NCBI RefSeq assembly: GCF_033095965.1
Contig: NZ_AP026801.1
Span: 1,818,001-1,882,000, forward strand
Origin: Xylocopilactobacillus apis
GTDB taxonomy: Bacteria > Bacillota > Bacilli > Lactobacillales > Lactobacillaceae
Direction: 5' to 3'
DNA: 64,000 nucleotides
Shown here: positions 1 to 52,547 of the stretch, one piece after another
Layout of the letters: each line of letters begins with the position of its first letter
How positions within the stretch are numbered: position 1 is the first letter of the stretch
Notes under the pieces: model-generated
What the model was told of the DNA's origin: nothing
What the model saw: only the letters and a program-made list of their open reading frames with translations
Database searches by the model: none
Translations under genes and position numbers: made by a program

Positions 1-3000
1 TATCAACATCATTGATCGCAGCACCAACAGACGGGTTTGATAACATATCCGTGCTGACATAATCTTCAAGAATAAAGTTTGGACCAAATGTAAGCTTCCA
101 CAGCTTCGGCGTATTCGCTAACATCCCTTTGCGGTAGCTGCTGTACACCCGCTTCGTGTTGAATTTCGTTAAGTCCAAACTCGTTAACTTGCTGCACCCA
201 CTGAACATTGAATTAAAGTTCGCAACTTTTTCGGTGTCAAAATTGCTTACGTTTAACCTTGTGATCTCAGCACAGGACCCAAACATCCCATTCATATTCG
301 TTACATTACCTGTCTTAAAGAAACTGACATCAATAACTGGCAGTACAGTACAGCGATTGAACATATTATCCATTGCCGTTACCTGACTTGTATCAAACTT
401 CACTGGATCCATCTTGAGATCTGTTAATGACCGGCAGTAGTAAAACATCCCTGACATACTGGTAACCTTACTCGTATCGAAATTCCTTAAATCCAGCGAT
501 GTTAAAGCAGTACTAAAACCAAACATTGAATGCATGTCTAACACATTGCTGGTAACGAAACTGCTCACATCTATTGTCGGAAGCAGACTGCATTCAAAGA
601 ACATTAAACTCATATCCGTTACCTGACTCGTATTGAAGTGGGTCACATCTATACTTGGCAGCTTCTTACAGCTCGTAAACATTGCTGCCATATTGGTTAC
701 TTTGCTGGTATCAAAGTTAGTCACATCTAGATTTGTTAAGTTATTGCATTCCTTAAACATTGCTGACATGGTTTCTACTTTACTGGTGTCAAAGTGAGTC
801 ACATCTAAATTAGGCAGCTGGCTGCAGTAGGAAAACATACTTGACATATCTGTCACTTTGCTGGTATTAAAGTGAGTTACGTCTACTATCGGCAGTGATG
901 AACATTGTGAAAACATTGAACTCATGTTGGTTACTTGACTGGTATCAAGCTGGGAGAGGCCTTCGATTGAGGTCATTGCACTCATTCTGCTGAAAAGTCC
1001 AAAAAGTGAATTCTTGGCTGTTACCCCAGGAGAAATAACTGTTTTGACGATCTGACTGTCATTTTGATACCAAGGCCAATCAGATACAACTTTTCCATCG
1101 ACGTCAACGTAACTAACATGATCTACATCAAAGTTCAATTCATGCGGATAGATTGTCAATACTCCTAAATTATATCTCCACCAGTAAGTACCCCAAACAT
1201 ATGTGGATTTTGCTGCCCCCGTTCGATACCTAGTCATAATTTCATTCGCCGAAATTAAGGGACCGTTGGGACTTGTTTCACTACCTGTTCCAACTTCCTG
1301 CCAAGAAGTAGTTGGATTTTGTGAAGTATTACCAGCTGCTGCCGGTAAATCACCTGATTGTGGGAATTTTGTATATGGGCCTAAAGTTAGAACGTTTAGC
1401 GCTGTATCCCCGCTAAAGATATGATCAGTTTTAGTAGCATAAAACATGTTTAAAAGGCTTAAATCCAAAGTTGCTAGACTCGTACAGTTTTCAAAAAGAT
1501 GACTAAAATCTTGACACGAGGCAGTGACAACATTCTGCAAGCCGGACACTGAGGTTAGATAAGGCATGTTTGCAAACATGTAAGACATTGATCTAGCAAT
1601 TACCCCAGAATTAATAACAACACTTTTAACCTCATTTCGCCTTGAATCCCACGGCCAGCCTGCTGCATTTGTTGGTAAAAAGTCAATATTATGTGCATAT
1701 ATAATTAATGTTCCTTGGCTATTTATTTCCCACCAATTACTCTCAGTTAAAGTAACATTATTAGTCTTTGGAACATAGTTGGCTGTATTATAAACGAGAT
1801 CAGTGCTCGCTAAAGGAGAGTTAGAATTAGTACTATTGTAAAAATACGATCCCCACGTAGGGTTCCCTGCATCATCAATTAATTGATTAGACTGATCATA
1901 AATTGAAACACCAGAAACAATTTGTGAACTTCCCGGAGTAGAAGAATTACCAGGAACTTTAGTGACTACAATTTGCCCCTGATCATTTACCGTTAGATTT
2001 GCTTTATCTGCGCCTTGATAGGTCATCGTTACGGTGTTAGTACCCATATAACCCGGACTCAAGTTATTACTGGTTCCATATTTTAAAGGAACATAAAGTA
2101 ATCCATCTTTTTGAGTAACTCCTAAGGGTAATGGGCTATCCGGTTGAAAAATTCCTGCTAAAGACTGTACTGCCGTTACATTTGACCAGATTCCTGAAAT
2201 ATATAAACTGCGAGCAGAGTAACTAAAAGTAACTTTATCGCCTGGATTAATTGCTGATGATGTTGTTAAAGTCCCTCCATTAACTCTCATTTGAAGATTT
2301 GCGTATGGATCAGAAGCAATTCTTGGAATTTTACGATAAACATAGTTAAGGAAAATAATATTTCCAAAGTTAGTTTTAACTGTTACATTAGAGCCAACAT
2401 TAGTTACCGTTGCCCCACTACCAACTGATCCCAATCGTTTATTAATCCGACCATTATTTTGATAAAAAGTTCCATTAACTTGTGCTCTTTGATATGTATA
2501 CCCATCTTTAACAATGGTTGGAGTTGAACTAGTATCAACAAATTCTGTCGAACCTGGATGCGTCCTCTGCCAATCAGATTGTAAAGTAGTTACTGGCGTT
2601 TTTAAATCAGTACCATTTTCGTCAACATAACGAGTGGTAATAATTTCGTCGCCTGGGGTAAAAGTTCCTTGGATATTTTTAATTGTATTAGTTTCATAAG
2701 TATCTCCAGTTGAACCTAGAATCGAAAAAGCCCAGTTACTGCGATCTGCAATTACATTCCTTTCATCAGCATTTAAAACTTTTACCCAAGTTACTTTACG
2801 ATCAAGATCTACTGTTAAGCGATAGGTACTTGCATCGTAAGAAATGGTCATATGGTGCCAAGCACGATCAATCATCTGAAGTCTTGCGGTCCCACTTACT
2901 GTCCCTTCTGTATTGCTTTTAGAAGTTACAGTCATCCCGTTTAGTGGAGCAGAAAGAATAGAAGCATAACCATAACCATTACTATCAGTACTAATAAAGG

Positions 3001-3862
3001 CTCCATAAGTATTATCATCAATATTATTATATACAAAGCGATCATCTGGTTTTGAATACTGATCGAGCAAATGATACGTGGGATCTCCATAAGCTGTGCT
3101 CTGCATAGAAGGATACATTGGCAAATAATCTAATCCGTTAAAATGCGTATCAACTTTAAAAGCCAACGCATTCATTAAATCACTTACCCCCAAACATCCA
3201 CCGCGTAATCCAAGTGAATGAACAGTCTGCCCATTATCTGGATCACTAGCAGATGTAACTGAGCTTTGAGTCGAATCTGCATGACGTCCAAAAACGCTAG
3301 GCAAGATATAAGAACTCATTCCATGGGTCCCTGTTATTCGATCGCGTGGTCGATAGATTGGGTGGAAAACAAATCCTAGCCCATCCGCACCAGTTGTAGC
3401 CCCTGGAATGATTTGTAAATCCCAATTAAAGTTAAAATTCTTGGTCATATCAACCGTCGCATTTAGAGACACTGCTCCTAACTGCTTTACGGAGTTCGTA
3501 ATTACTACGGTACCCCAAGTTCCATCAGAGTTAACATTAACTCTCGCACTACCTACAGGAGCAAAGAAGTTTTGGCTATCTCCGACACCAATTGTTACTG
3601 GACTTATGTCTCCAACACCAAATGGGACTATATTAAAATTTTGCTTGTTTTGAGGGAGTGATGTTTGTTGAAGCGGGTCTATAAAACCGGAATTTAATTG
3701 ATTATTAAAGTCCCCAGAAGCGCTAACATTGTTTTCATTTAATTGACTTTGCGGAGAGCTGAACGCCTTGTTTTCTTGCTTATTACTTAAAACAAGCCCA
3801 ATAACTGCAATACTTAATAACGATACTATTAAATACCCTAATCTTTTTATTAACCCGTTCAT
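1..3862 (-). CDS. BspA-type LRR surface protein with L-type lectin domain (adhesin 1; 3' end outside window)
   Basis: About 1287 codons are open from ATG 3862 to the left edge with no stop; the C-terminus (expected WxL domain) lies outside. The start follows a GGGAG ribosome binding site. A signal peptide begins MNGLIKRLGYLIVSLL. An L-type lectin-like domain spans about residues 70-390 (ADGLGFVFHP, GGCLGVSDLMNA). A MucBP-like domain follows at about 405-505 (TTRYVDENGTDL), then a DUF11-like beta domain to about 645. Two cap-plus-repeat cassettes come next: a first cap near 1740-1550 with a short repeat region, and a second cap near 1190-960 with about ten DUF285/BspA repeats of the form SKVTDMSSMF. 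It is a paralogue of the gene at 4009-7693 but has no poly-G run, so it should be expressed constitutively. Role inferred: adhesion to glycans or host surfaces from the cell wall. Confidence 0.85.
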   Translation of the reverse strand, partial: MNGLIKRLGYLIVSLLSIAVIGLVLSNKQENKAFSSPQSQLNENNVSASGDFNNQLNSGFIDPLQQTSLPQNKQNFNIVPFGVGDISPVTIGVGDSQNFFAPVGSARVNVNSDGTWGTVVITNSVKQLGAVSLNATVDMTKNFNFNWDLQIIPGATTGADGLGFVFHPIYRPRDRITGTHGMSSYILPSVFGRHADSTQSSVTSASDPDNGQTVHSLGLRGGCLGVSDLMNALAFKVDTHFNGLDYLPMYPSMQSTAYGDPTYHLLDQYSKPDDRFVYNNIDDNTYGAFISTDSNGYGYASILSAPLNGMTVTSKSNTEGTVSGTARLQMIDRAWHHMTISYDASTYRLTVDLDRKVTWVKVLNADERNVIADRSNWAFSILGSTGDTYETNTIKNIQGTFTPGDEIITTRYVDENGTDLKTPVTTLQSDWQRTHPGSTEFVDTSSTPTIVKDGYTYQRAQVNGTFYQNNGRINKRLGSVGSGATVTNVGSNVTVKTNFGNIIFLNYVYRKIPRIASDPYANLQMRVNGGTLTTSSAINPGDKVTFSYSARSLYISGIWSNVTAVQSLAGIFQPDSPLPLGVTQKDGLLYVPLKYGTSNNLSPGYMGTNTVTMTYQGADKANLTVNDQGQIVVTKVPGNSSTPGSSQIVSGVSIYDQSNQLIDDAGNPTWGSYFYNSTNSNSPLASTDLVYNTANYVPKTNNVTLTESNWWEINSQGTLIIYAHNIDFLPTNAAGWPWDSRRNEVKSVVINSGVIARSMSYMFANMPYLTSVSGLQNVVTASCQDFSHLFENCTSLATLDLSLLNMFYATKTDHIFSGDTALNVLTLGPYTKFPQSGDLPAAAGNTSQNPTTSWQEVGTGSETSPNGPLISANEIMTRYRTGAAKSTYVWGTYWWRYNLGVLTIYPHELNFDVDHVSYVDVDGKVVSDWPWYQNDSQIVKTVISPGVTAKNSLFGLFSRMSAMTSIEGLSQLDTSQVTNMSSMFSQCSSLPIVDVTHFNTSKVTDMSSMFSYCSQLPNLDVTHFDTSKVETMSAMFKECNNLTNLDVTNFDTSKVTNMAAMFTSCKKLPSIDVTHFNTSQVTDMSLMFFECSLLPTIDVSSFVTSNVLDMHSMFGFSTALTSLDLRNFDTSKVTSMSGMFYYCRSLTDLKMDPVKFDTSQVTAMDNMFNRCTVLPVIDVSFFKTGNVTNMNGMFGSCAEITRLNVSNFDTEKVANFNSMFSGCSKLTSLDLTKFNTKRVYSSYRKGMLANTPKLWKLTFGPNFILEDYVSTDMLSNPSVGAAINDVD

Positions 3863-4008: not shown

Positions 4009-7000
4009 TTAAGGAGTGTCATTCACTAACGTAAATGTTACCGTCGCATTATATCTCCCTGCTTTCGGGATATCACTCGGACTTGCTTTAAAGCTTAATG
4101 TCCATGGATAATTCTTCACATCTTGATACAAACTAGTCGCTACCTCGCTGTAAAGTGTTTGTGCTGTTGGAAGCAGATGTGTTACTGTTCCCGTAGTTGT
4201 ATCGTGATAATAAAGGGGATCTCCTCGGATTACCTTCGTTGGGTCAGACGAAAGTTTAAATGGATTTGTGACGGATGCTTCAATTCGCCAACGTCTGCCA
4301 GCTCGATCATTTCTGTTATCAGTAACTTTCAAATTTTGCCCTGAACTATTATATTCCCGATTTCTTAAATAACCCGAATGGGTCCCAAAATCGATACTTC
4401 CTGGAGTCGCTTCTAGAGTTTGACTCCCCACCTGGTCCCAGACATAAGTGTGAGCAGACGTATTTGTTAACGAATCTGTTGCAATCTGAGCTGCAGTTTT
4501 TGCTGCTCCCGTTGGAGCATGAACCGTTGTTGGAGTTAATGCCTCCCGCCATTGCGCATTGGTCGCATAATATTGTGGATTTGGCGGAACTGGATTCGCT
4601 ATATCATTAATTGCCGTTCCAGGTTTCGGATTAGGGAGTAAAGTTTGACTTCCTAACTTAGTTCCCGATCCCAATGTCAACTTCCACAGCGCTGAGGTTC
4701 GATTAGGTTCAGTTACACTAGGTGGAGCTAGATTAAACATATTCAAGGTGTTAGCCGTTGGCTTAATGTTGAAACTTGATAGATCAAGTTCTGTTAAACC
4801 TGAACTATTTTCAAATAAGTACGACATATCTGTCACATTTGAAACATCAAACTTACTAAGATCCAAATGAGTGATCAATGGACAACCGGAGAACATTGAC
4901 TGCATATTAGTTAAACTGGTCGTTATAAAGCCAGACGTATTAAGCTCCTTGAGCTTAAAACAGTTCAAAAACATCCAATTTGCATTTGTCACATGGCTCA
5001 TATCGAAATGACTGACGTCAATTGCTTCTAACGATTCACACATCGAAAACATCGCATATGTGTTCTCTGCCTTACTTGTATCAAAGTGGCTGACATCGAG
5101 ATCAGTTAAACTTTTATCTCCTTCAAACATTCCTGAAAAATCATCAACATTACTCGTAATGAAATTTGGACCGAATGTTACTCTCTTTAAATTTGTACAC
5201 TTTTGAACTAATCGATACATTATCGTTACATTCGGTGTATTAAAAGTCGAGAGGTCTAAAGATTCAATGCTTGAACATCCAGCAAACAAACTATTTAAGT
5301 CGGTCGCATTCGTTAAATCAAGATTATTTAACCCCACAAATTCAGTTACTGCACTTAGACCGTTAAACAAATGAGAAACTGAACCGCTGGAAGTTACCCC
5401 TGGATTAATCACTACTTTGGTAATATCTGCTGAGTACTGTTTCCAAGGCCAGTCTACATCTGGAAAGTTAGGAATATTTGTTGGAGTTACGACCGCATCA
5501 TTATATGCATTTAAGGTGTGCGGATAAAGTGTTAAAACTCCGTTCTTGTATGTCCACCAAGGTGATCCGTCTAAATTCAAGATGTCAGATGAAGGAACAT
5601 AATTGCTAGTTTTGTATGTTGGATCTAAACCAGCGAGTGGCGATTTATCATTTCTGGCATCATAAAAGTATGATCCCCAAACTGGATTTCCCGCTTCATC
5701 TATTAACTGATTTGACTGGTCATAAATCGAAACCTTCATTTGAATTTTAGAAATCGTTGGTGAACTTGCAGTTTCTGGAACAGTAGTAACCGCTATTGAC
5801 CCCGCATCATTTGCTGTTATATGAGCATTTTCTCCACCTGTATATTTCAAGGTAACCGTGTTTGTTCCAGTTGCTCCTGGTATTAAATCATTACTAGCAC
5901 CGTTATTTAGCGGTACATACATATAACCACTATCTACTGATACTCCTGTCGGCAACGGGGCTGGGGTCTCAAACAAACCACCACCTAAAGGTTGAACGGC
6001 TGTTACTTTATTCCAGATCCCTGGCACATTATTGTTTTTTACATTGTAAATAAAAGTTACTCGATCACCATTATTAACATTTCCAGAGGTAACTGCCGGT
6101 CCATTGTTAATTTTAAACTTAATATCAGTTTGGATATCTGTATTGCTTGCAGTCATGTTCCTACGATAGACATAATTTAAAAACATAACGTTATTGAATT
6201 GGGTTGTTGAAACTAGATTATTACCGTTTGCTGTAACTGTCGTCCCACTCGAAACTGTTCCTAAACGCTTATTTATTCTCGTATTATTTGCAAAGATGGT
6301 TCCATTTACTTGCGCTCTTACATAAGTATTCCCGTCTTTACCAACAATTGTAGGCTGAGTGTTAGTATCAACAAAATTTGGATCACCTGGGTGCATCTTC
6401 TGCCAATCTTCATAAGTTGTTGTTACAGGCGTCTGAAGGTCGGTCCCATTTTCATCAATATAACGAGTTGTAATAACTGGATCTCCAGGCGTAAACGTTC
6501 CATTAATATTTTTTACGGAATGCCCCTCATAATAAGCTCCTGTTGAAGCTAAAATGGCAAAACCCCAGTTACTCCGATCTTGAATAACACTCTTCTCTCC
6601 TGCCGTCAGTGTTTTCTTCCAAGTAACTTGTCCGCTGCCGGTAGCATCATGTAAAATAACCGTCATCGTATAGGTACTAGCATCATATGAAATTGTCATA
6701 TTCCGCCATTGATGATCACCGACCTTCATAGCAGTCCCACTCACACTGCCTTCTGAAGTTGTCTTTGAAGTCACTGCACTCCCATTCAATGGTGCACTTA
6801 AAGGTGCCCTCTTAACAAAACCATTGTTACTTGTCATTGAAAATGAACCGAAACTGTTATCAGAAGTCACTTGACCTTCAACCCCATTAGGGCTTGGATA
6901 AGCATCGTCCACAACGTGATACCACTGGCTATGATGAATATTGTCTCCATAAGCATGACCTGGAGATTCTGGATCACCATAATTGTTATAATATGTATCC

Positions 7001-7693
7001 AGCTTAAAGCCCCAAGCGTTCATCATGTCCCCGATCCCAAGGCTTCCACCTGTTCTCCCAATTGAGCGGATCGTTTGACCGTTATAACGGCTAGTTGGAC
7101 TTGTTACAGGATCATCACCATTTTCTCTTCCAAAAACAGCTGGAAGTGTATACGGTGCTTCACCTTGAGAACCTACAATTCTCTCACCTGGCTTATATAA
7201 CGGATGAAACACAAAACCAATCCCATCTGCCATTCTAGAATCAGAAACTGGGTCAATTTTTACATCCCAACTAAAGTTGAAATTCTTAGTCATATCAACT
7301 GTCGCATTTAATGTAACAGCTCCAACATAATAGGTATGCGGTTTGTTTAATAAGATATTATCCCATGTACCATTTTCATTAACCGTGACTTCTGCTCCTT
7401 GAACTGGTGCAAAGAAGTTCTGAGAATCTCCTGCTCCAATTGTAATTGGAGTTAGGTTTCCGTCTCTATTAAGATTTAAAAAATTGTTTGTAGAATTGAA
7501 AGTGTTTGAAACAGGGATTAAATTGTTAGCTAAACGCCCCCCCCCTGAAAACGCTACCATTATTTTCAATTGCTACATTATGCGGAAAATCCGCTGCTTT
7601 ATCTTCCTGTTTATTGCTTAACCCAACCTTAACAGTAATAATACTTACGATCACTAGTACTAAATAACCTAATTGTTTTATTAATTTGTTCAT
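4009..7693 (-). CDS. Phase-variable lectin/BspA-LRR/WxL surface protein (adhesin 2), out of frame at a G9 run
   Basis: ATG 7693 has a GGGAG ribosome binding site and encodes a signal peptide (MNKLIKQLGYLVLVIVSI). After about 50 residues the frame hits a stop just past nine G at 7537-7545. The remaining 1180 codons are open in the other frame. Deleting one G gives a continuous 1227-residue protein. Domains in that product: L-type lectin about 84-390 (ADGIGFVFHP, GGSLGIGDMMNA), MucBP-like about 400-500 (TTRYIDENGTDL), DUF11-like about 520-645, WW/PHTLN/WPW cap about 713-784, about eight DUF285 repeats to 974, a C-cap ending TYVWDQ near 1080, and a C-terminal WxL domain with WTL and FTL motifs. 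WxL domains hold proteins non-covalently on peptidoglycan. The downstream frame has no credible start of its own. A homopolymer sequencing error is the main alternative to phase variation. Confidence 0.85.
7537..7545 (-). repeat. G9 homopolymer (slippage tract) in adhesin 2
   Basis: Nine consecutive C on the plus strand, nine G in the coding strand, inside a low-GC gene right after the signal peptide. Flanks (GGTAGCG before TTTCA, CG after) match those of the tract at 10939-10947. Lengths of 8 or 11 would put the gene in frame. Confidence 0.9.
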
Positions 7694-7881: not shown

Positions 7882-10800
7882 TTAAGGCACTGCATCCAAC
7901 AGAGTAAATGTAATTTGACCGCTGTAACTTCCAGCTTCTGGGATATTGTTAGCTGTCGTTTTGAAAAGTAAATCCCAGGCCTCTTCCCACGTATCTTCAT
8001 ATGTCACACCAGGGATCACTTTGTCTGCCAAAAGCGTTGCCACCGGCGTCAGATTCGTTTCCACTCCTGAACTATTGCGGTGATGCAAAGGATTGCCCGT
8101 AATTCTCTTTGTTCCTTTAGTTAGAGGCTGTGTCATTGCTCCTTCAATCCGCCACTTCTTGTTCTTACGAGAGTTACGGTTGTCGGTAACTTTAAACTTG
8201 TGATCTGTACTTTCGTAGTTATGATTCCGAACTGATCCTCGATTCGTTCCAAAATCAATCGCAATCGGTGCTTCAAGCTGGACACGTCCACGCTGATCCC
8301 AAACGTAAGTTCGAACATCATTGCGAGTTGCTGATTCACTCATAATCTGGGATGCCGTCTTAACATCACCTTTGGGTTCATGATCACTTCCACCAACCCC
8401 GATCTCTCGCCACTTAGCATCAGTTGCAAAGTATTGCGGATTAGGCGGAACAGGTTTATCTAAATCAATTATTGGCGTTCTAGGATTCGGATTTGCTAAA
8501 CCTGTCGTACTTGATAACTTTGTATTTACTCCTAACGTTAATTTCCATAAATTTGTTGTCCCATTTAAAGAATCATCCATATTCATGGTATTGGGATTCG
8601 TTGTGAAACTTGAAAGATCTAAACTACTCAAAGAACTGCAGTTCTCAAATGCATGATTCATTGTTGTTACATTTGTTGTGTTAAAATTTTCTCCAAACGT
8701 GATCTTTTTTAGATTCGTGTCTTCCATAAACATATATGCCATTGTTGTAAGACTTGCAGTATTAAAATTACTCAGATCTATCTCGGATAGATTATTATCA
8801 AATTCAAACAACCAATTCATATTTTTTACATTCGAGGTGTTTAGACGACTTACATCTAAAGTTTTTAAACTTCGACAAACTGCAAACATTGCTTGCATAT
8901 CCAGCGCACTGCTTGTATCAATATGATCCATATCAATACTCTCTATACTCTGCATCCCTTCAAAGAAGCCGCCAAAGTTAGTCACATTTGACGTTATAAA
9001 ATTAGGCCCAAACTTTAGATCAGTTACACTTGAACAATTTCTCAAAAATCGGAACATATTATACGCTTTTAATGTATTAAAGCCTGACAGATCAATTGCC
9101 GTAAGATTCTTACAATCATTAAACATCCAGCTATAGTCCGTTACTTCTGTGGTGTTAAGATTAGTTAGCCCTACAATTTCCGTCATTGCTGTAAAACCTT
9201 TGAAAAGTTGAGCAATACTCGCTTTTGCGCTTACTCCTGGACTTATTACAGTTTTAGTAATTTGAGTTTTATACTGATCCCAAGGCCAAGTAACTGTTGG
9301 ATTAATTGGATCAACTGAAGAATCTATCACTGCATCTACTAAGGCATTCAACTCATGCGGATAGATGGTCAGAACCTTGGTGGTTGAATCAAAATACCAC
9401 CATACATAGTCATTGAGGTTTATGTGTTTGACCTCTGAAACATTATTTGAATTATCCACCGCCACAATATGGAGATATTTATTTAAACTCGCTGGCAGGG
9501 ATAAACTTAGATTAGCCGACGGATCAGTTGTTGAAGTGGCGGATAAATTAATATTAGTTACTTCACCAGTAGATGGATTCTTAGTTACTGCCGGCGTACT
9601 TGTCGGTGAACTGTCTAAAGTGTAGACATACCCTTTTACCCCGCTCTCTACCGAAGTTTTAATCACATCTGAATATTTATCTCTTAATGCAGTTTTGGCT
9701 TTTACTCGATAGTAGTAGTCGGTCGGATTGTCATTAGTATTTACTTTTAAATTAAGTTGGCTTACATTCGTTCCCGTAAGCGTTGTACTTGGTGCATCTG
9801 GCGCTGCCAGATCTTTAACGGTAAAGTCTTCGCCATGACGTGTTGTATTCAAAGTACTTGTATAATAGACCATATTAGCAATAATTTTTGCCTCATCAGG
9901 GGTACACTGACCAGTTGTATGACCAGTCTGAATCATTGCGTAATTTCCTTTAGTAAGTAAATACCAGTTATCATCGCCAATAACTCTACCTGAATAATCG
10001 TATGCATGGTTAGTGTAGTTAGTAAAATCGATATCATTAACAGAGTTGGGCGGGTATCCTCCCTCATACTGCATCCACCTAGTAGCGCTATCATCATACA
10101 TATAAAACTGAGCAAGTGAATGAGAAACAGAAATATTATATGTAACAGTTGGATCAAGATAATAAGGATACTGATTCAACATCCCATTAGAAGTAAATGA
10201 AACATGATTTGCCCCACGCCACTTATAACTATCAACTCTGCCTCCTTGATTTTCAATATCACTAGGAAACATCCAGCCTAATTTTGGAGCAAATCTATTG
10301 AAATAATGGTGTGATCCCATATAAATGCCAGCCAACGTGTCATGTCCTAAAATAATTGATCTCCCTGTATTAGCAAAAGATTCCACAATAGGTTGTGACG
10401 TTGCCGTTAAATCATTAACTCCTGGAGTCCACCCACCATTACTATCCGAAGAACCAAAATAAATTCCGTCATACCGATAATTGCCATCAACATCTTTCAA
10501 ATATCCATCAGGATTAGCATTAAAATCAGATAAAGAAATTTCATCAACGTCAATTAAATTCATAGAAACAGGTTGCCCAGATCCATTATTCTGATTCATC
10601 CATGCTTTTAAAAATCGACCATCAGGAGGATAAACGTTTAGAATCTTAATTTTTTTACCGTAGTTAGTTGGAGCTGTTTCCCACGCTGTATCATTATCAG
10701 AAATTATGTTGCTTGTTGATCTCTGCACAATATAACCATCAGAAATATCAGAAACAATATCCCAATCTAAAGAAATCGAGGCCTGATTCCCCACAAATTT

Positions 10801-11095
10801 ACTCTCGCCTCTTAAACCAAATTCTCCGTTCTTAACTATTGTTGAAGGCGAACGCAGATTAATCCTTGGATTGATCTTCGGAGTTCGCGGAAATTGTAAA
10901 GGATCCGCGAAAACAACTTCCGAGGGTCTATCTAAGCGCCCCCCCCCTGAAATCGCTACCATTAGTTTCAATTGCTACGTTGTGAGAAAAATCTGCGGCT
11001 TTATTCTCTTCTTTATTGGTTAATCCAATTCCAACAGCTGTGATACTTATTACTGCGATCAGAAAAGTTCCCATTAATTTTATATACTTGTTCAT
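7882..11095 (-). CDS. Phase-variable BspA-LRR/WxL surface protein with a different N-terminal domain (adhesin 3), out of frame at a G9 run
   Basis: The signal peptide starts at ATG 11095 (MNKYIKLMGTFLIAVISI), aligned with the two neighbouring paralogues. Nine G at 10939-10947 shift the frame into a stop; with eight G the product is 1070 residues. The N-terminal part is not a lectin: about 100-125 looks Fn3-like, and about 145-420 (ILNVYPPDGR, ISLSDFNANPDGY, GRSIILGHDT) resembles DUF5057-type domains, a guess from memory. A second Fn3-like stretch (YYRVKAKTA) is near 460. Then come the WW/PHELN/WPW cap (about 565-638), about seven DUF285 repeats, the C-cap (REIGVGGSDHEP) and a WxL domain with WDL and FTL motifs. 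It lies directly downstream of the response-regulator operon but has its own promoter. Confidence 0.83.
10939..10947 (-). repeat. G9 homopolymer (slippage tract) in adhesin 3
   Basis: Nine G in the coding strand at the same codon position as in adhesin 2, with the same flanks (GGTAGCG ... TTTCA before, CG after). Eight or eleven G restore the frame. Confidence 0.9.
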
Positions 11096-48018: not shown

Positions 48019-51000
48019 TTAAGGTGTTGTATCAATTAAAGTAAATGTTACTGTACCCTTGTAAGTTCCAGCTTCTGGAATCGCATTAGGACTTGATTTA
48101 AACATTAAGTTCCAAGATTTAGCCCATTCATCACTATACCCAACGCCAGTACTTGTTTCCATATAAAGACTAGTTGCTGTTGATGTTAACTGATGCTCTC
48201 CAAGCGCATCTTTAACATATAAAGGATTACCGGAAATCTTTTTCGCAGCATCATCTGTTTTAACTAAATCCGTTGCCTCTACAGTTACCTGCCACTGTTT
48301 ACCACCACGCAAGTTTCTGTTATCACTAACATCCATACTTTGAGCGGTACTTTGATAATCTTTTTGGCTTGAAGGTGCTGAATGGGTGCCTAAATCAATT
48401 TCTGTCGGTGCAGTAAAATTAAGTTGTCCCGTTTGATACCAGACGTAAGTCCTAGATTCCGTGTGTGCCGCTTGCGAATCCTTAAAAATATCGGTAACTG
48501 TTTTTTCAGCTCCATTGGGTTCATGATCTGATCCAGTTCCAACCTCTTGCCATTTTGCGCCTTTACAATAGTATTCTCCTGTGGGATCGGCTGGATCGTT
48601 AATGAGTGTGCCTGCAGTGGGATTATCTAAACCATTTCCATAGTTTATCCCTCCCCAATTCGTTGGTTCAAACAACTGCGTTTTCGGTCCGAGAGTGATT
48701 TTCCAAAGAGACGTCATGTCAGAAAGCATTCTTCTCATTCCTATATAACCAAGGCGAGAGTTTGTGGTATCTAAGAAGCTTAAATCAAGCGTTGTTAAAG
48801 ACTTACAGCCGTCAAACAAAAACGACATATCGTTTTCTGATTTTCCTGGATCATATGCTCCTACTTGACTTGTATCAAAACCACTCCCAAACTTAATACT
48901 CTTTAAAGATGCACATTGAGAAAACATCTGGTTGACCGAATGGAGTTTTGGGGTAGAAAAATGAGAAAGATCGAGACTAACCAACGAAGGACAGGATCTA
49001 AACATTCTCCGCATATAAACTACATTACTTGTGTCAAAAAGTGCACCCTTGAGATCAAGTGATGTTAAATTTGTACACATCTCAAACATTGAAATCATTG
49101 CAGTAACTTTCCTGGTGTCAAAACTTGAACAATTAAGAGCAGTGACAGTTTCACAGCCAGAAAACATACTGGACATATCTGTCACTAATCCTGTACTCCA
49201 TCCGCTAACATCAATTACTGGTACTAATTTACATCCGGCAAAAGTAGAATTCATATTTGTCGCTGCTTTGGGATTCCAATTACTAACATCAAGACCTGTT
49301 AGACTGGAACACTTATTAAATGTATAGGATAAATTCGTTACCTTATCAACGTTCCAATTTTTGGTATCTAAAATTCCTCCCAAATTACTATCATTATTAA
49401 ACATATAAGACATATTAGTTACTTGGCTTGTATCCCAATTACTAACGTCAAGGGCACTCAAAGCTTTGCAATCATTAAACATGTATGTCATGTTTGTTAC
49501 CATTCCGGTAGTCCATTTACTAGTGTCGAGATTATTTAATATTGCACACCCGCTGAACATATACGACATAATAACAGATTTAGAAGTATTCCAATTACTA
49601 ACATCAAGAGTTGGTAAGCTTGAACAATTAAAAAACATATAATTAAAAGATCCACAATTACTTACATCCCATTTACTAACATCAACGCTTACTAAAGAAC
49701 TGCATTTTTCAAACATATTCTGCATATTTGTTACATTGCCGGTATTCCAAAGGCTTGTATTAACTGTTGTTAAGTTCGTACATCCACTGAACATGTAAAA
49801 CATTAAAGTTGCGCTTGAGGTATCCCAGTTACCTGAATCCACGCTTACTAAACTTTTACAATCCTTAAACATGGCATACATGTTTTTCACTTTACCTGTA
49901 TCCCAAGTATTTGTCCCCACTGTTGTCAATTTACTGGAACTAAACATATTATCCATACTTTCAACATTACCAGTATTTAATTGACTGATGCCATCAAAAG
50001 AAGAAATTGTACTGTTTTGAAACATGCTTTTCATTGTTGTGACTTTACTTGTATCAAAATTAGGAGCTTTATTAAAATCAAAATCTCCTATTGACGTATA
50101 CGCAAACATAAAGTCCATTGTTGTAACATTAGACGTATTTAAATGATTTAAACATTCATAATCCTTTAGTCCACAGTATTGAAACATATACGACATATCG
50201 GTGACCTGACTCGTATCAAAATTTGTAAAGTTTAACGAAGTTAGGGCTGTACACTGAAAAAACATTCGAGTCATATTAGTTACAAGACTCGTATTAAAAC
50301 TTGATAAATCTAAATTTGTCAATTTAGAGCTTCCACTAAACATCGATTCCATATTAGTAACTTTTTCTGTGTTAAAGTTAGTTATATCAAGAGTTGTCAG
50401 CCCGGTTAAAGAGCCAAACATATATGACATATCTTTAACTTTACTCGTATCAAATTTACTAACATCAAGACTTGTTTGAGCATAATTACTAGTGAACATA
50501 AACGACATATCAGTCACCTGGCTAGTATCAAAGTGACTTAAGTCCAATGATGATAATTTATAGCATCCTCGAAACATACTATTCATATCAGTTACTTGAC
50601 TTGTATCTACATTCTCCAAGCCCTCAATAGTTGTTAAGACACTAAAACTTTCAAATAACTTTTTCAGTGATCCTTTGGCTGTTACCCCCGGTTCAATTAC
50701 TACCTTAGTAGCATAGTAGCAAGCATTGATCGGTTTTCTAGACCAAGGCCAAACATAAGAAGGAGTTGTCGCAGTTCCATTGTTTACTGAATCAAGATCA
50801 TAATTTAATTCGTGAGGATGGATAGTAAGAACTTTACTTGTCGCATCATAATCCCACCAAGTACCATCTTTTAATAAATAATCTTTACTCATCCCTGAGC
50901 TGTCTTTTGCTGTTAGTTTAACGGAAGAGGCCTTGGGATCAAGATTACTAGGCATTTCTGCCTGCCAATTATGTTTATTTTCGTCATTATTTGCAGTTAA

Positions 51001-52503
51001 ATCATTAGATAAATTATTGTAGTAAGTTACATTTAGAGGTTCCTGTTCGTGAACCTTGCCTGCGTAATCCTTGTAGGTAATATTTAATTTAAGTTGATCA
51101 GTATCACTGGTTTCTCCACTAAAGTGGGTCATCCCAGGATAAATTGAACTTTGATCTAGTGTAACTTTTGGTAATGCCGCCTTAACTTTATTTGTCGCTG
51201 AATTCGTAGATTTAGTAATGGTTTTTCCCGCAATTTTCATTGTCACTTTTGCGTTATTCGGTGCACTAAATTCAATACTTTCCTGATTCGAATCAACACT
51301 TGGCTGATGCTCAGAATCTAATCTGCCGTTAATTGAAATAAAATACGTATGACCAAAGAATTCAGGATTTTGAAGAGCTTTTTGCGTTGCATCAATTGTT
51401 AAATGATTGTTCTCAATCATTACTTGAAATAAATTTGTGACATTTTCTTTTAGTTCATTTGTGATTTTAATATTCTCGGGTTTCACTAACCATGCAGAAT
51501 TTAAATCATCATCAATTTGATACCAACCCAAATACCCAAACTGACCTTTGGGAACTGTCTGTTGAATCACATATAACGGATGAATTATTTTTCCCTCAGG
51601 TGCTTCTGTTTGATCATTTTCTGACTGAGTTAGATTTTCAATAGGAGATGTTTCATTTAATTTTCTCAAATTTACCGTTTCATCAACGCCCGTCATAATG
51701 GCATCCGGCATCTTAAAATCAACTACTGCATTTTTGTTAAATATCACTTGTGCTTTATCATTTTGATTTTTTAAAGCGTAATCCAACTCCATTTGACGAT
51801 CGAAAACCATGGTAAAATCGTTCTGCTTACTCTTTTCAGCAACTAAAAAATCAGTCATATTATTACTTTTAGAAAATTTTACCTTTGTTTCGGCAAAAGT
51901 AAAAATCTGTTTAGTTTGATTTAAGTTAAAACCAACTCTTTGGTTTGAAGTAAGCTCACCTACTGTAAGATGACCTGACATCGCCTCTGGTGTCATTGTG
52001 CCATGAATTACAAAACGCATCTTCATTTGAGCTGATGCATTTTTTCCAGTTAGTGCGACTGAGCCTACAGGTGCAATTATCATTTTCTCAGTATCATGAG
52101 CAGTAATTGTAACTACTGCATCAAGTGCATCTCCTTTTACATTAAGGCCAATATTAGAGTAGATAACCTGACCTTTAATTTGCTTAGAGGAATTAGAAGT
52201 CAATTGATAAGTTTGATCTGGTAATCTTTCAATTACAGCACCTGAGAAATCATTAACTGTTACTTTTGAATTAGGGCTTAGTTGAGGAGTGAATGAATAA
52301 ATGCTGTCCAGGGGTGTTTTAAGATCAGTGCTTACATTTGAAAGTTGGGTAATTTCTGTAAAATCATCAGCTTTTGCTTTAAAAGAACGATATTTTTTTC
52401 CGCCAAAAAATACAAATAACGCTGTTAGAAGTAAAATCTGCCAGAACAAAATTTTATGAAATTTTTTTAAACTTTTAGAATCTTTTGGAAACTTTAATTG
52501 CAA
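48019..52503 (-). CDS. Giant BspA-type LRR/WxL surface protein (adhesin 4)
   Basis: The 1494-residue protein starts at TTG 52503, ten bases after GAGG. A hydrophobic signal segment lies at about 17-36 (ILFWQILLLTALFVFF). A beta-rich region covers about 45-540. The WW/PHELN/WPW/PGV cap follows at about 544-624, and then about 23 DUF285/BspA repeats (628-1244) of the form DTSKVKDMSYMF, the longest array in the window. The C-cap (QEVGTGSDHEPNG) and a WxL domain (WNL and FTL motifs) finish it. It has no lectin domain and no poly-G run. It is out of the tandem array, 37 kb away, in the accessory block between rpsT and holA. Likely role: wall-anchored adhesion. Confidence 0.9.
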   Translation of the reverse strand: MQLKFPKDSKSLKKFHKILFWQILLLTALFVFFGGKKYRSFKAKADDFTEITQLSNVSTDLKTPLDSIYSFTPQLSPNSKVTVNDFSGAVIERLPDQTYQLTSNSSKQIKGQVIYSNIGLNVKGDALDAVVTITAHDTEKMIIAPVGSVALTGKNASAQMKMRFVIHGTMTPEAMSGHLTVGELTSNQRVGFNLNQTKQIFTFAETKVKFSKSNNMTDFLVAEKSKQNDFTMVFDRQMELDYALKNQNDKAQVIFNKNAVVDFKMPDAIMTGVDETVNLRKLNETSPIENLTQSENDQTEAPEGKIIHPLYVIQQTVPKGQFGYLGWYQIDDDLNSAWLVKPENIKITNELKENVTNLFQVMIENNHLTIDATQKALQNPEFFGHTYFISINGRLDSEHQPSVDSNQESIEFSAPNNAKVTMKIAGKTITKSTNSATNKVKAALPKVTLDQSSIYPGMTHFSGETSDTDQLKLNITYKDYAGKVHEQEPLNVTYYNNLSNDLTANNDENKHNWQAEMPSNLDPKASSVKLTAKDSSGMSKDYLLKDGTWWDYDATSKVLTIHPHELNYDLDSVNNGTATTPSYVWPWSRKPINACYYATKVVIEPGVTAKGSLKKLFESFSVLTTIEGLENVDTSQVTDMNSMFRGCYKLSSLDLSHFDTSQVTDMSFMFTSNYAQTSLDVSKFDTSKVKDMSYMFGSLTGLTTLDITNFNTEKVTNMESMFSGSSKLTNLDLSSFNTSLVTNMTRMFFQCTALTSLNFTNFDTSQVTDMSYMFQYCGLKDYECLNHLNTSNVTTMDFMFAYTSIGDFDFNKAPNFDTSKVTTMKSMFQNSTISSFDGISQLNTGNVESMDNMFSSSKLTTVGTNTWDTGKVKNMYAMFKDCKSLVSVDSGNWDTSSATLMFYMFSGCTNLTTVNTSLWNTGNVTNMQNMFEKCSSLVSVDVSKWDVSNCGSFNYMFFNCSSLPTLDVSNWNTSKSVIMSYMFSGCAILNNLDTSKWTTGMVTNMTYMFNDCKALSALDVSNWDTSQVTNMSYMFNNDSNLGGILDTKNWNVDKVTNLSYTFNKCSSLTGLDVSNWNPKAATNMNSTFAGCKLVPVIDVSGWSTGLVTDMSSMFSGCETVTALNCSSFDTRKVTAMISMFEMCTNLTSLDLKGALFDTSNVVYMRRMFRSCPSLVSLDLSHFSTPKLHSVNQMFSQCASLKSIKFGSGFDTSQVGAYDPGKSENDMSFLFDGCKSLTTLDLSFLDTTNSRLGYIGMRRMLSDMTSLWKITLGPKTQLFEPTNWGGINYGNGLDNPTAGTLINDPADPTGEYYCKGAKWQEVGTGSDHEPNGAEKTVTDIFKDSQAAHTESRTYVWYQTGQLNFTAPTEIDLGTHSAPSSQKDYQSTAQSMDVSDNRNLRGGKQWQVTVEATDLVKTDDAAKKISGNPLYVKDALGEHQLTSTATSLYMETSTGVGYSDEWAKSWNLMFKSSPNAIPEAGTYKGTVTFTLIDTTP

Positions 52504-52547
52504 TACTGTTTTTCCTCACATATAGTTATTACTGCTTTATCTGATTG

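Follow-up and report, generated by a model that had tools for sequence, protein, structure and literature searches.

A candidate poly-G phase-variation system in WxL-like surface-protein genes of Xylocopilactobacillus apis and a sister species

The surface-protein genes described here very probably constitute a multigene contingency (phase-variation) system operating by slipped-strand mispairing of poly-G. In this system, 11 PARCEL/WxL-like genes of X. apis and 13 of a sister species would be controlled by a G8–G10 run lying in a shared cassette, just 3' of the signal peptide, and the run would gain or lose one G by slipped-strand mispairing during replication. For most genes, the ON length is 8 or 11. 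A run of the ON length would place signal peptide and body in one frame and permit export and display of the protein; with any other length, the out-of-frame stops of the cassette would halt translation within 4–8 codons, and the surface protein would be absent. With a separate run at every locus, the genes would switch independently of one another, so that many combinations of surface proteins (2^11 in principle) could arise within a clone. The sequences themselves show the anatomy of the loci, the exclusivity of the run, the mixed states, the conserved bodies and the nucleotide conservation of the cassette; slippage in living cells and surface display of the products are inferred.

The window, that is, the whole stretch of 64,000 nucleotides analysed, corresponds to positions 1,818,001–1,882,000 of the 2,271,855-base single-contig genome of Xylocopilactobacillus apis and has a GC content of 35.7%. 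The sister species is represented by a same-genus genome of 2,311,735 bases, also in a single contig, and its sequence is GC-richer. The source organism probably lives in carpenter bees as a symbiont, and is likely to be a mutualistic lactic acid bacterium of this solitary host. Two carpenter-bee gut bacteria, X. apis KimC2 (2.27 Mbp, 34.9% GC) and X. apicola XA3 (2.31 Mbp), have been sequenced with PacBio Sequel/RSII and assembled with CANU, and the available sections of that report do not mention short-read polishing (PMC10433979).

Two neighbouring genes with a G9 run

A sequence-only reading of the window had described a single G9 run, switching off one adhesin gene (gene A). The run was confirmed, as C9 on the forward strand and G9 on the coding strand (Table 1), but a second case in the window, in gene B, and nine further cases in the genome had been overlooked. 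The signal-peptide ORF of gene A starts with an ATG at 7693, with the Shine-Dalgarno sequence GGGAG, and ends, as had been claimed, soon after the run (TAA at 7528–7526, 8 nt past it). The body is open from 7536 to 4012 (stop at 4009–4011) in a different frame, and one G fewer does join the two parts: G8 works, likewise G5 or G11. The statement that the body has no start of its own has to be qualified, because an in-frame ATG (7560–7558) and a TTG (7569) exist at G9, but this ATG lacks a Shine-Dalgarno sequence (anti-SD dG of +0.4, versus −7.5 for the real start). Strong Shine-Dalgarno sites precede the genuine starts of the run-bearing genes. The internal ATG was therefore discarded as a start at G9, although an ATG is present at this place, position −15 of the cassette, in 23 of the 24 genes. 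It is kept there despite amino-acid changes.

Gene B is a paralogue adjoining gene A, with its run in the same context and at the same place. Its body is open from 10938 to 7885 (stop at 7882–7884), and its orthologue in the sister species (95% identity) is likewise OFF. A third paralogue has a signal peptide of the same type and, being run-less and in frame, is predicted to be constitutive. Another long PARCEL/WxL-like gene, of 1498 codons (window, about 48022–52515), has no G-run and a different N-terminus.

Table 1. Features of the run-bearing loci and of a run-less paralogue. Coordinates are window positions unless stated otherwise; cross-species pairs give the X. apis position first and the sister-genome position second.
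Feature	Coordinates	Strand	Remarks
G9 run, adhesin gene A	7537..7545	-	OFF as assembled, ON at G8
Micro-cassette, gene A: AATGGTAGCGTTTTCA-G9-CGTTTAGCTAAC	7525..7565	-	ON frame encodes RLAN; stops in the 2 other frames
Upstream ORF, gene A, signal peptide MNKLIKQLGYLVLVIVSIITVKVGLSNKQEDKAADF...	7526..7693	-	TAA just past run
Body, gene A: L-type lectin domain, DUF285/PARCEL repeats, WxL-like C-terminus	4009..7536	-	1175 codons
Internal ATG, gene A, body frame at G9	7558..7560	-	No Shine-Dalgarno; unlikely start
Second G9 run, adhesin gene B	10939..10947	-	OFF as assembled, ON at G8
Upstream ORF, gene B, signal peptide MNKYIKLMGTFLIAVISITAVGIGL...	10928..11095	-	TAG just past run
Body, gene B: DUF285/PARCEL repeats, WxL-like C-terminus	7882..10938	-	1018 codons
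Third paralogue, no run (AGCGCTTCTGGGGACTTTAAT at matching place)	1..3862, past window start (genome 1817429-1821883)	-	In frame
Runs of G8, X. apis genome	genome 107508, 724903, 1516303, 1565350, 1681982		ON
Runs of G9, X. apis genome	genome 728719, 1577735, 1763336, 1825537 (window 7537), 1828939 (window 10939), 1888289		OFF
Cross-species pair, OFF/OFF	genome 1828939/337221		95% identity over 1018 aa; dN/dS 0.10
Cross-species pair, OFF/OFF	genome 1763336/943239		75% identity; dN/dS 0.10 at dS 1.7
Cross-species pair, OFF/OFF	genome 1888289/1729308		90% identity; dN/dS 0.34

The assumption that a G9 run is not expected by chance was borne out by first- to fourth-order Markov models for each strand of the 64-kb window, which gave expectations per window of 0.00008–0.004 (forward strand) and 0.005–0.06 (reverse strand) for the G9 word, whereas two were found. 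The remaining G or C runs within the window were all of five bases or fewer.

The domain content read from the sequence of gene A was largely recovered by profile searches. The 25-residue PARCEL repeats (TIGR02167 and PF03382) scored above the cut-off in gene A (E-values of 1.9e-29 and 5.4e-40) and were also found in gene B (2.6e-26 and 5.1e-26), and the L-type lectin of gene A (PF18483, legume-lectin beta-barrel) obtained 96.8 bits versus a cut-off of 78.3. No lectin match was obtained for gene B in the domain search, so not all members of the family are lectins. The proposed WxL anchor of gene A fell below the curated Pfam cut-off (E 0.0015; 19 bits versus 25) and can be retained only as WxL-like, which is the safe label since PF13731 (WxL) was matched weakly, by 17 of the 23 paralogues (best E 1.8e-5). 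The C-terminal 150 residues nevertheless form a conserved family, with a W, a D-RN and a terminal TL as conserved motifs among the paralogues. A pilin-like fold for this domain (window 4012–4461) was set aside, as there were only weak matches to chaperone-usher pilins; the confident AlphaFold model of the domain gave TM values of at most 0.59 with either normalisation. The domains suggest a role of the run-bearing proteins in adhesion or as lectins.

A cassette shared by two genomes

All runs of G8 or more, 11 of 11 in X. apis and 13 of 13 in the sister genome (G8–G10), lie within the cassette AATGGTAGCG(A/T)TT(T/C)CA-G8/9-C(G/A)(T/C)TTAGnTA, some 50 codons from the start of genes for PARCEL/WxL-like surface proteins. 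The runs are thus over-represented and confined to such genes (24 of 24 in the two genomes, with a window expectation below 0.1), and the only G7 runs outside the cassette are four in X. apis and six in the sister genome. With up to two mismatches allowed, the cassette was detected in 2 of 201 family genomes, both from the genus Xylocopilactobacillus. The word TTNCAG8 was present in 2 of 151 family genomes and in none of the 147 sampled outside the genus, and two further genus genomes, drafts about 85% complete, contained no G8 run. A scan of genome contigs yielded no exact match to the cassette and, for the C-terminal domain, a single MAG contig.

In the ON frame, the cassette reads N-G-S-D/V-F/S-R-G-G-R/H-L-A-N. 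The DNA 3' of the run, C(G/A)(T/C)TTAGnTA, gives TAG or TAA/TAG in the two other frames, and both wrong frames are closed 4–8 codons past the run in all 24 genes. Loci with altered amino acids (RLVN, RLDR) retain these stops, as do four loci that have an ON length of 9 or 10 owing to flanking indels. Over the five codons that precede the run, comparisons within and between species revealed no synonymous difference (0 in 845 same-residue codon pairs). Elsewhere, the proportions were 31–50% in the signal-peptide region, 19–39% at codons −6 to −10 and 45–62% at codons +13 to +40, with 11–23% in the first four codons past the run, which still belong to the cassette. Either the nucleotides of the pre-run stretch are constrained or this short stretch has been homogenised, and the data fit both. 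A run-less cassette serving as a separate recombination site was dismissed, since all 20 exact matches to the upstream half carry the run. The run itself is also lost in some cases, as in the run-less but in-frame sister gene 101564, which has CAAGGGAGCGTTAGATAAT versus CAG9CCGTTAGATAAT in its paralogue 214052.

Two variants are rewired. At position 724903 of the X. apis genome, the cassette precedes a second, different signal peptide, which makes the run part of an N-terminal extension. In the sister genome (1811423), a G10 (ON) run is carried by a short leader ORF encoding a signal peptide; the stop of this ORF overlaps the ATG of the surface-protein gene that follows (CTTTATGAATAA), behind AGAGGTGAT, an arrangement that looks like phase-variable translational coupling. 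We tentatively consider the possibility, which we regard as somewhat doubtful, that the cassette of about 40 nt is a switch module in its own right, dedicated to switching at the DNA level, maintained or disseminated through selection or gene conversion acting on its nucleotides, and joined to different 5' ends (a gene with the second signal peptide behind the cassette and one leader ORF overlapping the start of the next surface gene), with flanks that may tune slippage or act as recombination points. The C-terminal profile matched 29 places in X. apis and 31 in the sister genome, a few fragments included, as against 11 and 13 run-bearing genes, so about 40% of the WxL-like repertoire of this Lactobacillaceae symbiont would be independently switchable.

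Run states, selection and alternative explanations

Both states were found in each genome, with 4 ON and 9 OFF loci and lengths of 8, 9 and 10 in the sister genome (see Table 1 for X. apis). Relative to the ON length, 9 of the 24 loci are in frame, 12 are at +1 and 3 at +2. Run length differs between paralogues and in one orthologous pair (1888289/1729308, G9 versus G10). At all 24 loci, a simple repeat (G8–G10) is placed between signal peptide and body, where a change of one unit would alter expression. From their length, the runs are expected to be hypermutable. Loss of mismatch repair was dismissed as a driver because mutS, the presence of which would damp slippage, was found in all four genus genomes. 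By analogy with Bifidobacterium breve, in which a G10 run slipped much less than a G11 run (PMC9187656), lengths of 8–9 would be at the short end for fast switching.

The bodies of 23 of the 24 run-bearing genes are open over 820–1303 codons and interrupted only at the run, the 24th being the coupled leader variant. These genes are otherwise intact and under selection: the three cross-species pairs that are OFF in both assemblies have dN/dS ratios of 0.10 to 0.34, which would not be shown by genes that are never translated. Pairs 1828939/337221 and 1888289/1729308 have a dS of only 0.17–0.26, and the available text on these species gives less than 75% ANI between their genomes and related taxa (PMC10433979). 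Such a dS is low for species this distant, suggesting that a recent exchange of surface genes between the two species is likely.

Phase variation, as first proposed for gene A, was thus strengthened by the occurrence of all 24 runs at one place in one gene family, the mixed lengths and states, the conserved OFF bodies and the built-in stops in both wrong frames. The idea of a single phase-variable lectin was not, as the putative switch belongs to a genome-wide family.

It could be argued that all the runs are truly at the ON length and that the OFF states are homopolymer errors in an unpolished PacBio assembly, given the sequencing reported for X. apis KimC2. The OFF loci (15 of 24) are each off by only one or two bases, G8–G10 runs are the hardest case for assembly, and a run annotated as G11 in B. 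breve was mostly G12 in the population according to the available text (PMC9187656). However, the bodies of the 23 run genes (71.4 kb) hold 66 homopolymers of at least six bases and not one frame break, so the assemblies are not generally poor. Furthermore, PacBio consensus tends to drop bases, whereas most of the OFF calls are too long (+1, +2), and an artefact would leave the conservation of run and cassette without a reason, GGG accounting for only 17% of Gly codons. We therefore consider this explanation improbable. If the genome is that of X. apis KimC2, each called length may nevertheless be off, the assembly being PacBio-only, and the ON/OFF call at any one locus is provisional. The pattern across the family is independent of any single call.

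Programmed ribosomal frameshifting or transcriptional slippage, yielding some full-length protein at any DNA length, is more improbable still. A run of GGG codons allows cognate slippage both ways and a low-level leak is conceivable, but the immediate stops in both wrong frames oppose it. The shifts needed also differ among the 24 loci (none in 9, one kind in 12 and another in 3), so no single programmed shift fits the family, and structure-stimulated frameshifting was dismissed because the mRNA around the run is no more structured than shuffled sequences (mean z of −0.09). Least credible is the decay of the OFF genes as pseudogenes with runs broken by chance: OFF genes outnumber ON genes and fragments of the C-terminal domain occur elsewhere in both genomes, but the OFF bodies are otherwise intact, with the low dN/dS given above, and are broken at the run and nowhere else.

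Relation to known switches

Pathogens such as Neisseria and Campylobacter provide the best-known examples of independent poly-G switching at multiple loci. In the present case, such switching appears to control a large part of the surface proteins of a lactic acid bacterium that is probably a bee mutualist. If so, cells of one strain would wear differing sets of lectin-like adhesins, and this would bear on how insect gut symbionts achieve host specificity, are transmitted vertically and escape phages.

The mechanism class, SSR contingency, is already known. In design, the nearest system is the sortase-pilus switch of B. breve and other Bifidobacterium spp., likewise Gram-positive gut commensals, in which a G-run splits a signal-peptide ORF from an anchor ORF, the loss of one G joins the two ORFs, and tract lengths were sequenced and replication slippage measured (PMC9187656). 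That switch, however, involves one or two pilus operons, LPXTG sortase anchors and runs of G10–G12 (PMC9187656), whereas X. apis and its sister have 11–13 scattered genes, WxL-like anchors and one conserved micro-cassette. In organisation, the closest parallel is opa of Neisseria gonorrhoeae, with up to 11 scattered paralogues, a repeat in each leader region and independent frame switching (reviewed in PMC3960869), but there the repeat is a CTCTT pentamer within the leader and the products are outer-membrane proteins, unlike the poly-G past the signal peptide and the cell-wall proteins of X. apis. The PARCEL lipoproteins MAG1330 and MAG3260 of Mycoplasma agalactiae have an N-terminal poly-G tract; the available part of that report mentions these two in passing and describes no shared cassette, and the organism is wall-less and the anchor unrelated (PMC2996958). 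Gardnerella has many runs of 8 or more near surface-protein genes, with one length change detected by Sanger sequencing, but these lie in diverse genes, mostly upstream of ORFs, include A/T tracts and share no single cassette (PMC11287997). In the open-access literature, we found no paper on phase variation of WxL proteins or on poly-G switching in lactobacilli or other Lactobacillaceae. Within the literature searched, three features seem new: a cassette common to all the loci, its deployment throughout the WxL repertoire of a member of the Lactobacillaceae, and the two rewired variants.

Annotation pipelines may label many run-bearing genes as split genes or pseudogenes. Some pairs of DUF285 matches with identical scores lie far apart in the genome (2142k/2188k and 21k/2168k), which suggests large recent duplications.
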